DNA of 23,648 nucleotides, from positions 1-23,648 of the IMG/VR virus record IMGVR_UViG_3300031787_000848. One strand, 5' to 3'. This DNA comes from a virus. The notes below the pieces were generated by a model. The model saw nothing but the letters and a program-made list of their open reading frames with translations. It ran no database searches and had not been told where the DNA came from. Of this stretch, positions 7,016-17,164 are shown piece by piece (the first letter of the stretch is position 1; each line of letters begins with the position of its first letter). A program made the translations under genes and the position numbers.

Positions 7016-8511
7016 CACACCCTCCGTGTGCGTACTGCGTATGGGTCCCTCGAAACCGATCCTCCACTCAACTCCCGTGCGAGGTCAAGCATTTCCTCGT
7101 TGTACCTGTCTTTTTCCGTCGTGACCTTGCTGTGCATCGAGATTGCGAAGGACACCTCATCATAGACATGGTCCTCCTGCCGTCTGGTGGCTGGCCCCTT
7201 GTCAGGCTCAAGCTCGTCAAGCGTCAGGCCGGGGCAGGTGCGCCAGAAGTGGCGGCAGTTGTCGGTCACGAACAGCAGCGGCGACCAAGTGCCATCCGAT
7301 TGCTGCTCGCCAATGAGGTGCTGGACCATCGTCGTGTAGTTGGCCTTCCGATCCCTGCGGCCCTGCCGGAGGATGAATCGACCGGAAGTGGCGGTCCTCA
7401 TGTTGTCCTGAGGGGAGGGACCGTCCTGGCTGGCCCACATCTGCGGGTCAGCGACCCGGAAGTCCATCGGCGGCAACTGCATCTCGCCTTCAAGCCGGAT
7501 GACCTCGCGGGCCACCTCGGCTGCCGACATGCGCGCGCCCATGTCCGCTTCCCCGTTCCACCCGTACCACTCGGCAAAGCGGATCTTCGCGCCGGGCGGG
7601 AGGTAGACCTCGGGGAATCCGTCCTTGGCCTTCAGAGTTGCTCCCTCCGATATGCAGTACCATCCGATGGAGAAGGGCTTGGCTGTGCCCCAGTCCATAG
7701 CCATGAAATGGGTCCAATGTCGTGGGGGCTTGAAGCCGCGAATGAGATGCTTGCCCCGGTCGAGCATGGATAGGGCTGCTCCCGAAACCACATCCCAGTC
7801 GCCGTCCCGTAGTGCCTTGGCCCGCTCGGGGGACAAAGCGGTGAAGGATCCTTCATAGCTGTCAACATCCAGATGCGGGTTGTCGTCCATCTTTGCGGGG
7901 ATGTAGATGCTCTTCCACCCCGGCGAGTTCTTGGTCTTGGTCGTCTTGTCGTGGAAGAAGTGCATCGGCGGGGCTTGCTCGATGAAGATGTCCCGCAAGA
8001 GGTTGTGCGCGGGGCCGCCGGGATTGCTGCCGATGACAATCCTCGGGAACACATCCTCCTGCTGGGCCTTGTAGCGACCCAGACGCACTCGGGTACGGAG
8101 GAACTTGATCTGGTCAGGCAGCAGGAGCGCCGCTTCGTCCAGCCCCAGCCAATGCATCTCCGCGCCCTGGTACTTGTAGATGTCCGCCAAATCCTCCGCG
8201 AAGCAGAACTGGAGGAACGCCCCGTTGTAGAACGTCAGCTTCCGATCCGTTTCCTTCCAAACCGCCACCTCAGGGGGGATCGCCATCTGCTGGATGGGGA
8301 TCAGGTGGTTGTCCTTCAGTTCCGGGTAGGTCCGCCGAAAGAGATACGCCTGCAAGCCAGCGTTCTGGAGGCACGAAATGATGCCATCCATCCTGATGGC
8401 ATGACTCTTGCCCCCGCCCGCAGCACCACCGTAGAGAACCTGCCGCGCCTTAACTGCGTGGAAGATCCTCTGCTTCTCCGATGGCTGGTAGCCCAGCGAC
8501 CATTGGGGCAT
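7015..8511 (-). CDS. terL: Terminase large subunit (packaging ATPase/nuclease)
   Basis: 498 residues, full length. It powers DNA translocation into the procapsid through the portal and cuts the concatemer. Walker A is GGAAGGGKSHA (28-38). Walker B is MHWLGLDEAALL (119-130) with D125 and catalytic E126. The coupling motif is IVIGSNPGG (158-166). The RNase-H-like nuclease has FMAMDWGTAK (D273), FRVADPQM (D355) and EDHVYDEVSFA (D447/D451). GGAG lies 7 nt before the ATG. The first 62 nt overlap the small-subunit gene in another frame, so the two are probably translated in a fixed ratio. Confidence 0.96.
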   Translation of the reverse strand: MPQWSLGYQPSEKQRIFHAVKARQVLYGGAAGGGKSHAIRMDGIISCLQNAGLQAYLFRRTYPELKDNHLIPIQQMAIPPEVAVWKETDRKLTFYNGAFLQFCFAEDLADIYKYQGAEMHWLGLDEAALLLPDQIKFLRTRVRLGRYKAQQEDVFPRIVIGSNPGGPAHNLLRDIFIEQAPPMHFFHDKTTKTKNSPGWKSIYIPAKMDDNPHLDVDSYEGSFTALSPERAKALRDGDWDVVSGAALSMLDRGKHLIRGFKPPRHWTHFMAMDWGTAKPFSIGWYCISEGATLKAKDGFPEVYLPPGAKIRFAEWYGWNGEADMGARMSAAEVAREVIRLEGEMQLPPMDFRVADPQMWASQDGPSPQDNMRTATSGRFILRQGRRDRKANYTTMVQHLIGEQQSDGTWSPLLFVTDNCRHFWRTCPGLTLDELEPDKGPATRRQEDHVYDEVSFAISMHSKVTTEKDRYNEEMLDLARELSGGSVSRDPYAVRTRRV

Positions 8512-13616: not shown

Positions 13617-14540
13617 ATGCCAGCCTACTACAACGAGATTGATCCCTATGCAGCACAATGGCTGCGGAACCTGATCGCTGCTGGACACATAGCTCCAGGC
13701 GACGTTGACGAAAGGAGCATCGTGGATGTCAAGCCGGACGACCTCATCGGATACACACAATGCCACTTCTTCGCCGGCATCGGAGGCTGGAGCCTCGCCG
13801 CGCGCCTCGCAGGATGGCCCGACGACCGACCTCTTTGGACAGGCTCCTGCCCCTGCCAGCCCTTCTCGTCGGCAGGACAGCGCAAGGGGGAAGCAGATGA
13901 GCGACACCTATGGCCCGTCCTTGCCGCCCTCGTCCGCGAGCGGAGGCCCCCTGTCGTGGCTGGAGAACAGGTTGCGAGCAAGGATGGGTTGCGCTGGCTC
14001 GATGGAGTATGCGCTGACCTGGAAGCTGCGAACTACACCGTCTGGTCGGCGGATTTCTGCGCTGCGAGCGTCGGCGCACCGCACATACGGCAGCGGCTAT
14101 GGTGGGTGGCGCAGTCCGTCAGCGAGCGACGCAGAGGGTGGCGTGATGCAGATCCGACCGTTGACTCACGCGCGGTACAAGCTGCGGGACGAAGCGCATT
14201 TGGCGGGGGCGGCATTGCTCTCGGGTTGTCTGACTCCATCGGCCAACGAGGATGCAGCGGGGCTGCCGGGGGCGGCATTGCTCTCGGGCTGGGCGACTCC
14301 AACGACGCGCGACCACAAGGACGGGTCAACGGATCTGGACAAAGCCGGGGTGCCGATCAACGGACTGCTTGGTCGTCAGGTCAGCCTGTCCCGTGCAGAG
14401 ACGGAAAATCGCGGCGCGTTGAACCCGGCATTCAGCCGCTGGCTCATGGGGTATCCAACCGAGTGGGACGCCTGCGCGCCTACGGTAACGCGATTGTCCC
14501 GCAGGTCGCGGCCGAAATCCTGAGAGCGTACCTAGACTGA
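13617..14540 (+). CDS. C5 cytosine-specific DNA methyltransferase
   Basis: 307 residues. Motif I is FFAGIGGWS (51-59), motif IV is GSCPCQPFS (76-84) with catalytic C80, motif VI is GEQVAS (116-121; Gln replaces the usual Asn of ENV), motif VIII is [14 protein letters not shown] (152-165) and motif X is [18 protein letters not shown] (285-302). It transfers a methyl group to cytosine C5 in a specific DNA sequence. The variable region between VIII and X (about 166-280) is the target-recognition part and is Gly-rich with an internal repeat. GGAGG-rich sequence is just upstream of the ATG. It likely protects phage DNA from restriction. Most of it overlaps another open frame that also looks coding. 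Confidence 0.9.
13726..14523 (+). CDS. Overlapping-frame ORF of a phage family found with C5 methyltransferases
   Basis: 265 residues wholly inside the methyltransferase gene in another frame. The order [16 protein letters not shown] (35-50), [20 protein letters not shown] (65-84), [17 protein letters not shown] (92-108), repeated GW-x-S/T-P segments (127, 167, 188), and [20 protein letters not shown] (231-250) is recalled from many annotated phage hypothetical proteins. The start at 13726 has GGAG 8 nt upstream; ATG 13897 after AGGGGG is an alternative. It may be a truly dual-coded protein, or a shadow frame kept open by methyltransferase codon constraints and repeatedly annotated. Confidence 0.42.
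14205..14288 (+). repeat. 63-bp spaced direct repeat in the dual-frame region
   Basis: The 21-mer from 14205 to 14225 recurs exactly at 14268-14288, and similarity continues 12 bp further to GACTCC. The 63-bp offset is 21 codons, so both frames stay in phase: GGGIALGL in the methyltransferase frame and GAALLSG in the other. It is consistent with a tandem duplication that lengthened the variable region. Confidence 0.8.
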
Positions 14541-15027: not shown

Positions 15028-15096
15028 ATGAAACAGACGCTGCTACTCATGCTGTTCCTGGCTGCAATTCTCATAGGACTAGGGGTGCTGACATGA
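15028..15096 (+). CDS. 22-residue membrane micropeptide
   Basis: MKQTLLLMLFLAAILIGLGV plus LT: one hydrophobic helix after a single lysine. GAGGAGG lies 4-5 nt upstream of the ATG and the stop overlaps the next start (ATGA), so translation is well supported despite the size. It may be a membrane-active or regulatory peptide. Confidence 0.58.
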   Translation: MKQTLLLMLFLAAILIGLGVLT

Positions 15097-15698
15097 GCGA
15101 TATGCTTGGGGAGCCCTCATTCGAGGACTTCTGGCGGTCGTATCCGCGCCGCGTCGGGCGGGGGGCTGCGGTCAAGTCGTGGGACAAGATGACCAAGGCG
15201 TTGAAGATCGCCCCATCCGACATCCTCAAGGGCTGCCACGCCTACGCTGCTGCCATGCGGGGCAAGGACATCCAGTACGTCGCCCATGCCAGCACCTGGC
15301 TGAACCAGCAGCGGTGGCTGGACGAGCATTCGACTGCCGTTGCCTCCGACGAGCCGCAGTACCGTCAGGACACCGCAGCCGTAGAGGCACTCAACCAGAA
15401 CGACCTCGCACACCGCTGCAAGAAGGAGCTTCTTCAGCGCACCCGCGAGATCCACTCGGAGCAACTGCATGAGGCGGCTCGCAGGCTGAAGAGTACCGAA
15501 CCGGAACTGTGGGATTGCATGACGCCAGGAGGCGATGGCTTTGAGCGAAAGGCGTGGTTCGCTGCCGTGGCCCATGTCTTCCAGGGCGCGCCGCTGCCGG
15601 ATGCCATCTCGATCACCAAGGAGCATTGGCTGAGTGGTCGAGACCGGCTGGAGACACGAATCCGGTGCATCTCCGCCAAACAGGCATTGACAGGCTGA
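15093..15698 (+). CDS. Phage replisome organizer / replication protein-like
   Basis: 201 residues. FEDFWRSYPRRVGRGAAVKS (10-29), DILKGCHAYAAAM and HASTWLNQQRWLDEH (about 65-79) form the domain found at the C-terminus of many phage replication initiators (FW..YP..K..A...W through ..S.WLN..RW.D). It is thought to contact helicase or primase. Here it stands at the N-terminus and the origin-binding winged helix is absent, so origin recognition may be supplied by the DnaA-like protein at 12377. The C-terminal 120 residues are helical and unrecognised. Confidence 0.7.
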   Translation: MSDMLGEPSFEDFWRSYPRRVGRGAAVKSWDKMTKALKIAPSDILKGCHAYAAAMRGKDIQYVAHASTWLNQQRWLDEHSTAVASDEPQYRQDTAAVEALNQNDLAHRCKKELLQRTREIHSEQLHEAARRLKSTEPELWDCMTPGGDGFERKAWFAAVAHVFQGAPLPDAISITKEHWLSGRDRLETRIRCISAKQALTG

Positions 15699-15738
15699 GA
15701 CATACGATCCATAAACATCGCGCAACAAAGGAGGGACC

Positions 15739-16515
15739 ATGTTGCCAATCGCTAAGACCAAGTCGTGGCACGACGCCCGGAGGTCGGGTATCGGCGGCTC
15801 CGATGCCAACGTCATCATGTCTGGGGATGCCGAGCGCATCCACGACCTCTGGCTGGTTAAGACGGGCCAGAAGGAACCGGAAGACCTGAGTGACAAGTTC
15901 CAGGTCATGCTTGGATCTGCCACGGAGGCTTTCAACCTCAGTTGGTTTGAGAAGGTGACCGGCATCTCGCTCATGCGGGATGTATCGGTGGAGAGCAGCG
16001 GCTTCCTGCGCGCAACGCTTGATGGGCTGTGCGAAACGCACATCGTGGAGGCCAAGCACACCCACGCTCGCACCAGCATGCAGGAAGTTCTCGCGCGCTA
16101 CCAACCTCAGTTGCACCACAACATGATGTGCGCCGGGAAGACGCGGGCCTACCTCTCGGTGATTCTCGGAAACGAGTGGGACTACATCGAGGTCGAATAC
16201 AACGAGGAGTACGCGCTGCAACTGGTCGAGCGCGAGAAGGAGTTCTGGGAGTGCGTCACGCTCCGTCTCCCGCCGAGCAACGTGGCTGTCAAGATCGACC
16301 CACCCGAGGCAACACGAACCGTTGACATGACGGGCAACAACGAGTGGTCATCTGCTGCACACGAATGGCTGATGTGCAAGAACTACGCATCTCAGTTCGA
16401 CAAGGCCGCTGATACGATCAAGAAGCTGGTGGCTGCGGATGTTCGATCCGCTGCTGGTCACGGCATCACGGTGACGCGCGACAAGCGTCGTGCGCTCCGC
16501 ATCAAGGAGGGATGA
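15739..16515 (+). CDS. YqaJ / lambda-exonuclease-family viral recombinase
   Basis: 258 residues. RRSGIGGSDANVIM (14-27) is the YqaJ N-terminal signature. GSATEAF (59-65) supplies a conserved Glu, RATLDG (91-96) the catalytic Asp (D95), HIVEAKHTH (101-109) the E-x-K pair (E104, K106), and YQPQLHHNMMCAG (121-133) the conserved Gln. It would resect double-strand ends 5' to 3' to give 3' single strands for the annealing protein encoded next. GGAGGG lies 3-4 nt from the ATG. A 40-bp spacer precedes it. Confidence 0.9.
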   Translation: MLPIAKTKSWHDARRSGIGGSDANVIMSGDAERIHDLWLVKTGQKEPEDLSDKFQVMLGSATEAFNLSWFEKVTGISLMRDVSVESSGFLRATLDGLCETHIVEAKHTHARTSMQEVLARYQPQLHHNMMCAGKTRAYLSVILGNEWDYIEVEYNEEYALQLVEREKEFWECVTLRLPPSNVAVKIDPPEATRTVDMTGNNEWSSAAHEWLMCKNYASQFDKAADTIKKLVAADVRSAAGHGITVTRDKRRALRIKEG

Positions 16516-16516
16516 C

Positions 16517-17164
16517 ATGGACGAGAACCTGGACAAGCAGGCCCTGCTCTACGCTGCTTTGGCGGCGGCTCAGGGCAAGATGAGCAACCCCGTGAAGAAC
16601 CGGGAGGTCAGCGTGAAGTCGGATCGCGGGGCGTACAAGTTCGCCTACGCGACCTTGGATGCAATCCTCGACGGCATCCGTGGCCCGCTCGCAAGCAACG
16701 GGCTGGCCTTCACTCAGACGCTGGAGAGGCGCGAGGACGGCATGGTCATGTGCCTGCGACTCTTCCACAGCGGCGGAGGTCTGGTGTCCACCTGTATGCC
16801 GCTCGACAGCGCCCGCATCGTCAAAATGCAGGAGATGGGCAGCCTGATGACTTTCGCCCGGCGCTATCAGATCGCCAGCTTCTTTGGCCTCGCCGCCGAG
16901 GAGGATGACGACGCGAACTCGGCAGACGGCAATCAGGTCCAGAACATGACCACTCGGGCGTCCAAGCCCGACCCGCGCGCCGAATACAAGCGCATCCACG
17001 ACGCCATGTCGTCGGCCCAGGATGCGACGGCTCTGGCCGAGATCATGCTGGCGAACAAGGAAGCCATCATGCTGGTGAAGAACGCCAGCGAGCAGGGCTA
17101 TGCCGCCCTGATGGCTCTCAAGGACAAGCTGGTTGCCGGTTACAGCGGGGAGGGCGAGGCATGA
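16517..17164 (+). CDS. erf: ERF-family single-strand annealing protein
   Basis: 215 residues. FAYATLDAILDGIRGPLASN (42-61) with LAFTQTLE and QEMGSLMTFARRYQIASFFG (105-124) followed by AAEEDDDAN is the ERF core (GS.xTxARRYxL...Gx..EEDDD). It anneals complementary strands and pairs with the exonuclease immediately upstream. The C-terminal 70 residues carry a helical region (YKRIHDAMSSAQDATALAEI). The start at 16517 is set by GGAGGG 5 nt upstream. It overlaps the next gene by ATGA. Confidence 0.92.
   Translation: MDENLDKQALLYAALAAAQGKMSNPVKNREVSVKSDRGAYKFAYATLDAILDGIRGPLASNGLAFTQTLERREDGMVMCLRLFHSGGGLVSTCMPLDSARIVKMQEMGSLMTFARRYQIASFFGLAAEEDDDANSADGNQVQNMTTRASKPDPRAEYKRIHDAMSSAQDATALAEIMLANKEAIMLVKNASEQGYAALMALKDKLVAGYSGEGEA

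Follow-up and report, generated by a model that had tools for sequence, protein, structure and literature searches.

A selected gene nested in the +1 frame of a phage C5-cytosine methyltransferase gene, probably encoding a second subunit of the enzyme

Introduction

Long, fully nested genes on the same strand are considered rare in prokaryotes and are difficult to prove. Among C5-cytosine methyltransferases (MTases), M.EcoHK31I, an enzyme of YGGCCR specificity, has a small subunit of 176 aa whose coding sequence is an alternative frame within the gene of the large subunit, as Lee, Kam and Shaw reportedly described in 1995; M.EaeI is another two-polypeptide C5 methyltransferase. The large subunit of M.EcoHK31I carries motifs I-VIII and X, motif IX occurs only in the small second polypeptide, and the predicted target-recognition domain (TRD) is assigned to the large subunit (PMC3404938). 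M.AquI is likewise one C5 MTase made from two polypeptides (PMC3404938).

We describe here a phage MTase gene that contains a complete second gene in its +1 frame. Comparative evidence for this nested gene is given together with its motif content, start sites and distribution, and the locus is then compared with the enzymes above.

Results

A 265-codon frame within the methyltransferase gene

The stretch of DNA analysed (the window) is the 23,648 nt of IMG/VR virus record IMGVR_UViG_3300031787_000848. Its MTase ORF, here called alpha, lies at 13617-14540 (+), immediately 3' of a Shine-Dalgarno of GGAGGAGG type, and encodes a C5-cytosine MTase of 307 aa. Alpha passes the gathering cut-off of 22 for PF00145 (C-5 cytosine DNA methylase; E=3.7e-14, 53.3 bits), in an alignment that spans residues 75-168 only, and matches PHROG 363 (E=1.9e-83); together with the structural alignment given below, these matches identify it as the catalytic polypeptide.

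The second frame, here called beta, is a same-strand +1-frame ORF inside alpha (13726-14523). The initial annotation had described a second frame of 265 codons at this locus, and such a frame is indeed present, running from ATG 13726 to the codon preceding the TGA at 14521-14523. Two of the peptide motifs quoted for it, EYALTWK and one of 21 residues, are found in the beta translation as given; another, SSAS...SLENRL, is present with SW in place of SL. The window beta matches PHROG 1008 (E=2.6e-27), a family labelled 'DNA methyltransferase', and a Pfam and NCBIfam domain search of beta returned no match. A further IMG/VR contig (IMGVR_UViG_3300027816_000161, L081) has a beta ORF with 100% identity to the window beta.

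Elsewhere in the window, 7018-8511 (-) encodes a terminase large subunit, and 15093-17161 (+), just 3' of the MTase gene, encodes a replication initiation protein, a RecE-like exonuclease and an Erf-like annealing protein.

Stop codons are absent from the +1 frame

Expected stop counts were obtained by shuffling synonymous codons, which leaves the MTase protein and its codon usage unchanged. The +1 codons 37-302 of the window gene stay open in 4 of 20,000 such shuffles, with 5.5 stops expected, so that the open frame is already improbable at this one GC-rich locus. For the wider comparison, 80 IMG/VR and 80 GTDB-genome relatives were retrieved with the alpha protein alone, blind to beta; the main set for stop counts comprised 113 non-redundant full-length alphas of the phage/Pseudomonadota clade. 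These contain no +1 stop at all over codons 95-283, against 288 expected (0 vs 158 for codons 95-165, 0 vs 115 for 166-269, and 0 vs 15 for 270-283), and 5 against 47 expected over codons 44-94. Codons 5-43, which lie 5' of beta, hold 175 +1 stops where 147 are expected, and the other forward frame (+2) of the same 113 alphas shows no stop depletion.

The same pattern recurs in more distant sequences. A Bacteroidota-type clade of 90 sequences with a mean GC of 46%, gathered with a Bacteroidota alpha as query, has a single stop against some 520 expected in bins 2-9 of the overlap, with normal or raised counts outside it, and six mycobacteriophage alphas have none against about 19 expected (bins 2-10). 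The control set of 31 canonical single-chain C5 MTases with an in-frame motif IX gave 356 stops vs 340 expected, with 0 of 31 frames open; the open frame is therefore no by-product of MTase motifs. Given this comparative evidence, a chance origin of the open frame is untenable.

Independent evidence was taken from shuffle-controlled tests only: E-values between close clades were not counted as such, because conserved alpha alone gives similar shadows. A larger set of 150 sequences, used below, was partly recruited through beta, a bias of which the counts for the 113 alphas and for the Bacteroidota-type clade are free.

Synonymous sites of alpha are frozen where beta is encoded

In a codon alignment of the 150 sequences, some of them recruited through beta, the synonymous sites of alpha are near neutral before codon 44, mildly constrained up to codon 94, and frozen from about 105 to 299. 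Examples of frozen codons are Val119 (GTT in 146/149), Phe115 (TTT, 103/103), Asp146 (GAT, 90/90), Ala276 (GCT, 140/141), His277 (CAT, 106/106), Gly278 (GGG, 147/148) and V283 (GTG, 132/134). The majority of the frozen codons are non-preferred in these genes, and each spells the beta residue; thus CAT at His277 supplies the Met (ATG) of WLMGYP in beta. When 41 independent close pairs were compared at positions where the residue is unchanged, the two codons differed in 31% of cases 5' of beta and in 16-18% over codons 95-299. Selection on the N-terminus of beta is light, since synonymous constraint is weak at alpha codons 44-94.

Over most of the gene alpha is the better conserved frame, but the pattern reverses in the linker region of alpha (residues 191-246), where beta residues change less than those of alpha (0.27 vs 0.32; 0.40 vs 0.54 in a second clade). 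The fastest-changing position in the linker is the third codon position of beta, the opposite of what holds outside it. Purifying selection acts on both frames. The initial annotation had proposed to test for constraint on the second frame, and the excess that it had in mind is found: stops are absent, and the synonymous sites of alpha are near-fixed where beta residues are determined.

Alpha has the catalytic motifs and lacks motif IX

Catalytic motifs I, IV, VI, VIII and X are all present in alpha, with a profile match at 4.7e-15. Motif I (FAGIGGW, 13770-13790) aligns to its canonical counterpart by hhalign (P=8.7e-6). Motif IV, with the catalytic Cys (PCQPFS, 13851-13868), is placed by alignment to M.HhaI, and its P79, C80 and S84 are invariant in 113 homologs, as are E117 and Q118 at the motif VI position (13962-13973), where GEQV replaces ENV as a feature of this alpha clade. 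R158 and R160 of motif VIII (HIRQRLWWV, 14082-14108) are invariant in the same 113, and motif X (GNAIVPQ, 14484-14504) has invariant G290, N291, A292 and I293. A canonical motif IX was sought between motifs VIII and X and found in 0 of 246 alphas.

The AlphaFold model of alpha is confident at residues 1-160 and 290-307, and its large domain aligns to M.HhaI (Z 15.5, rmsd 2.5 over 167 residues). Residues 191-246 (14187-14354), i.e. the linker at the place where a TRD is expected and whose DNA codes for the W-x-TP region of beta, are disordered in the model (pLDDT <50). Alpha is thus predicted to be without a folded target-recognition domain.

In alphas of the phage/Pseudomonadota clade, hhalign places the N-terminal 45 residues on the canonical motif II/III region (P=0.002); in the window this concerns 13617-13790, alpha residues 3-43 and 52-84. 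These alphas miss about 37-45 residues between motifs I and IV in comparison with Bacteroidota alphas, which keep the usual motif order. From these alignments the SAM-binding segment of the phage/Pseudomonadota alphas looks permuted, in the order II-III-I-IV.

Beta carries a motif-IX-like block

Near its C-terminal end beta has a 16-residue block (14419-14466) that resembles motif IX, of which RRLTPRECARLMGYPDDY is an example among the canonical single-chain sequences gathered. The block, LNPxxxxWLMGYPxxW, was scored with the pattern L-x-P-x5,6-MG[FYLW]P-x2-[WFYM], which occurs in 136/150 betas of the phage/Pseudomonadota clade, 84/90 of the Bacteroidota type and 4/6 from mycobacteriophages; betas missing the pattern are mostly close variants. 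Motif IX is also where beta aligns best in local profile comparisons with canonical MTases, with an hhalign P of only 0.06-0.2 because the block is short.

Two other features of beta recur in the family consensus. One is a conserved block of 40 residues (13956-14076), predicted by AlphaFold as a helix and a two-stranded hairpin (helix 18-30, strands 38-46 and 52-62, numbered from ATG 13897; pLDDT ~66-90 by block). The other is a series of W-x-TP repeats with the family consensus GWPTPxxxD. The initial annotation had spoken of a repeated GWxTP; the window has one exact copy (GWATP, 14287-14301), the others being degenerate (GWRSP, 14104-14118, and GCLTP, 14224-14238), and W-x-T-P repeats are usual in the homologs.

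Modelled alone (208 aa from ATG 13897), beta has a mean pLDDT of 63, for which reason structural matches of the model were left uninterpreted; its BFVD matches are sequence relatives with TM ~0.2. A PDB sequence search with the beta profile matched no chain.

Start of beta

ATG 13726 is preceded, at a distance of 8 nt, by the Shine-Dalgarno AAGGAG (13712-13717). Across the 150 homologs, alpha codons 27, 31, 37 and 41 show an excess of ATG in the +1 frame (z 3.5-6.2), which is greatest at codon 37, the position of the proposed start in the window (71 seen vs 41 expected, z 6.2; 65 vs 41 at codon 31); at most other positions +1 ATG is neutral or depleted. Directly 3' of this start-enriched zone the +1 stops disappear. 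A start codon is available at or before alpha codon 60 in 147/150 homologs, and in 103/150 an ATG at or before codon 75 follows a Shine-Dalgarno match of at least 4; 13/150 have no ATG, GTG or TTG near or after codon 50. The beta start varies among alpha codons 27-41, and about one third of the homologs lack a good Shine-Dalgarno plus ATG.

The downstream ATG 13897 was considered as the beta start and rejected: stops are already depleted in codons 44-94 (5 vs 47), +1 ATG is under-represented at the position of ATG 13897, and ATG 13726 has the better Shine-Dalgarno.

Internal initiation is favoured over frameshifting because of the ATG enrichment, the Shine-Dalgarno matches and the loss of stops past the start zone. 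By these signals beta would be translated from its own start, at sites that are not uniform across the family.

Distribution and variant copies

The nested pair is present in well-studied phages. Gene 58 of phage N15 contains both frames, of which alpha alone is annotated; epsilon15, Bas72 and mycobacteriophage Nitzel have the pair with beta unannotated; and in K1ind1, PhiXhv-5 and Paenibacillus phage Jacopo both frames are annotated. PHROG 1008 was found in 22 of 398 sampled Pseudomonadota genomes (~5%), and is matched by the betas of Jacopo (3.9e-72), Nitzel (5.4e-32) and a Bacteroidota copy (2e-22). PHROG 363 is matched by the alphas of N15, Jacopo and Nitzel. Since alphas match PHROG 363 and betas PHROG 1008, these families, catalogued as separate and both labelled 'DNA methyltransferase', are here two frames of the same DNA.

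A stand-alone beta was sought in the 398 Pseudomonadota genomes and the IMG/VR loci and none was found; all intact betas checked lie in the +1 frame within an alpha ORF that has the PCQ motif. In these samples the two frames always co-occur. A search of E. coli genomes with the DNA of N15 gene 58 gave no near match.

Some copies have unusual structures. (i) About a dozen nested-beta loci lack a standard motif X by the regular expression GN[AS][IVF]; those with a PCQ-motif alpha ORF and nested beta (L391, L398, L400-L402, L407, L412, L413, L417 and L418) are a further variant of the pair. (ii) The beta-frame ORF extends hundreds of codons 5' of or past alpha in L032, L035 (617 aa), L050 (450 aa) and L052 (479 aa). 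(iii) In three metagenome-assembled genomes (L185, L189, L192), alpha and beta exchange frames part-way, as single indels would give; these may be assembly errors or real exchanges between the products. (iv) Decayed copies occur in the insect endosymbionts Arsenophonus (L183) and Serratia symbiotica (L191), with alpha in several pieces and beta broken too. (v) A Dokdonella metagenome-assembled genome (L190) has a 685-aa alpha-frame ORF in which a motif I region with 85% identity to the window is far from the rest of alpha, with beta downstream, possibly through an insertion or a domain fusion.

Discussion

The two frames look like subunits of one enzyme because alpha is without motif IX and beta has a motif-IX-like block. 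We consider it likely that the locus encodes a two-polypeptide C5-cytosine MTase from two fully overlapping genes, alpha being the catalytic chain and beta contributing motif IX and probably the recognition domain; the latter assignment rests on the complementarity of alpha and beta, not on a structural match. Under this model, motifs I, IV, VI, VIII and X, for SAM binding and catalysis, come from alpha in frame 0, and translation of beta in frame +1 would begin within alpha, from a Shine-Dalgarno and ATG of its own. Beta would bring the motif-IX-like block, the helix-hairpin and the W-x-TP repeats over the stretch that alpha leaves unconserved, and its most likely role is that of the small (target-recognition) domain, folded onto alpha. 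The complex may then methylate a specific site, and the methylation presumably shields the phage DNA from restriction.

The initial annotation had set the use of both frames against shadow proteins in the databases, created by conserved MTase motifs. On the shadow reading, high GC and these motifs would leave the second frame open without its being translated, and the database entries would be ghost proteins. The window is indeed GC-rich, and a lone long +1 ORF is a weak argument, as several GC-rich loci are plausibly open by chance. However, synonymous shuffles give hundreds of stops where none occur, with the same result at 46% GC; canonical MTases with the same motifs show no effect; and the synonymous sites of alpha are held at the codons that the beta residues require. 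Stop counts and synonymous freezing thus reject the shadow reading, to which we give practically no credence, and selection supports the use of both frames. Synonymous constraint by itself is agnostic as to cause, so frozen sites could also mark an RNA or DNA element (a structure, origin or packaging signal) in place of a protein. Such an element would have to account for constraint that is about 200 codons long and is matched by a single frame wholly free of stops, for the third codon position of beta being the fastest to change where alpha is unconserved, and for a beta protein profile that recovers Bacteroidota copies (E=2e-22); we regard it as vanishingly improbable.

If beta is a protein, ribosomes might enter its frame by programmed frameshifting while translating alpha, and the product would be a fusion of the alpha N-terminus to beta. 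The 13/150 homologs without a nearby start codon and the weak constraint on beta before codon 95 would suit such a fusion, but the start codons by codon 60 in 147/150, the ATG with Shine-Dalgarno in 103/150, the enrichment of +1 ATG at codons 27, 31, 37 and 41 and the vanishing of stops just past that zone make it very unlikely. Beta could also be a real, selected overlapping gene whose product is not an MTase subunit, e.g. an anti-restriction or regulatory protein. This would agree with the lack of a Pfam or NCBIfam domain, the poor fold of beta alone and W-x-TP repeats unlike known recognition domains. We nevertheless think it unlikely: in three clades beta has a motif-IX-like block exactly where alpha lacks one, it never occurs without alpha in our samples, and alpha alone would, as predicted, be without a recognition domain.

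Returning to the two-subunit enzyme, we lean somewhat towards a broader proposal, that the locus belongs to a large and ancient class of C5 MTases that are obligately dual-coded, with catalysis in one frame, the whole target-recognition domain in the other, and internal initiation. The proposed class would cover Pseudomonadota, Bacteroidota and their phages, Mycobacterium and Paenibacillus phages, and some members from other phyla. If it is real, few prokaryotic gene pairs that are fully nested on the same strand would be as old or as widespread as these, in which specificity evolves in one frame while the other tolerates change as a disordered linker.

The locus offers a 265-codon nested gene with clear-cut comparative evidence, known from well-studied phages and from ~5% of the Pseudomonadota genomes sampled, and a testable system for two functions that share one DNA sequence. 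Annotation usually omits one frame or names both 'DNA methyltransferase'. Cloning and activity studies that express the annotated ORF alone may carry beta inside it unnoticed, and codon-optimised synthetic alpha genes would silently destroy beta, giving a dead or non-specific enzyme.

In the literature searched we found no account of a phage gene for a C5 MTase that harbours another gene inside it, and the breadth and depth of dual coding appear undescribed there. Canonical single-chain C5 MTases (M.HhaI and Dcm type) share the catalytic motifs and the large-domain fold with alpha; unlike alpha, they contain both motif IX and the TRD in their own reading frame and show no selection on the +1 frame. 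The split of M.AquI also differs, its small subunit carrying motifs IX and X, whereas motif X (GNAIVPQ) stays in alpha here. M.EcoHK31I is closer. As in that enzyme, motifs I, IV, VI, VIII and X are in the large chain, motif IX is absent there, and a motif-IX-like block is in the second chain. Our locus differs in being a phage gene, and in a recognition region that seemingly lies in beta, unlike the predicted TRD in the large subunit of M.EcoHK31I. Beta, at 265 aa, is longer than the 176 aa of the M.EcoHK31I small subunit, and its origin from a selected overlapping frame is like the layout reported for that polypeptide. The locus works like M.EcoHK31I on all testable features, the two being likened by description and not by sequence.
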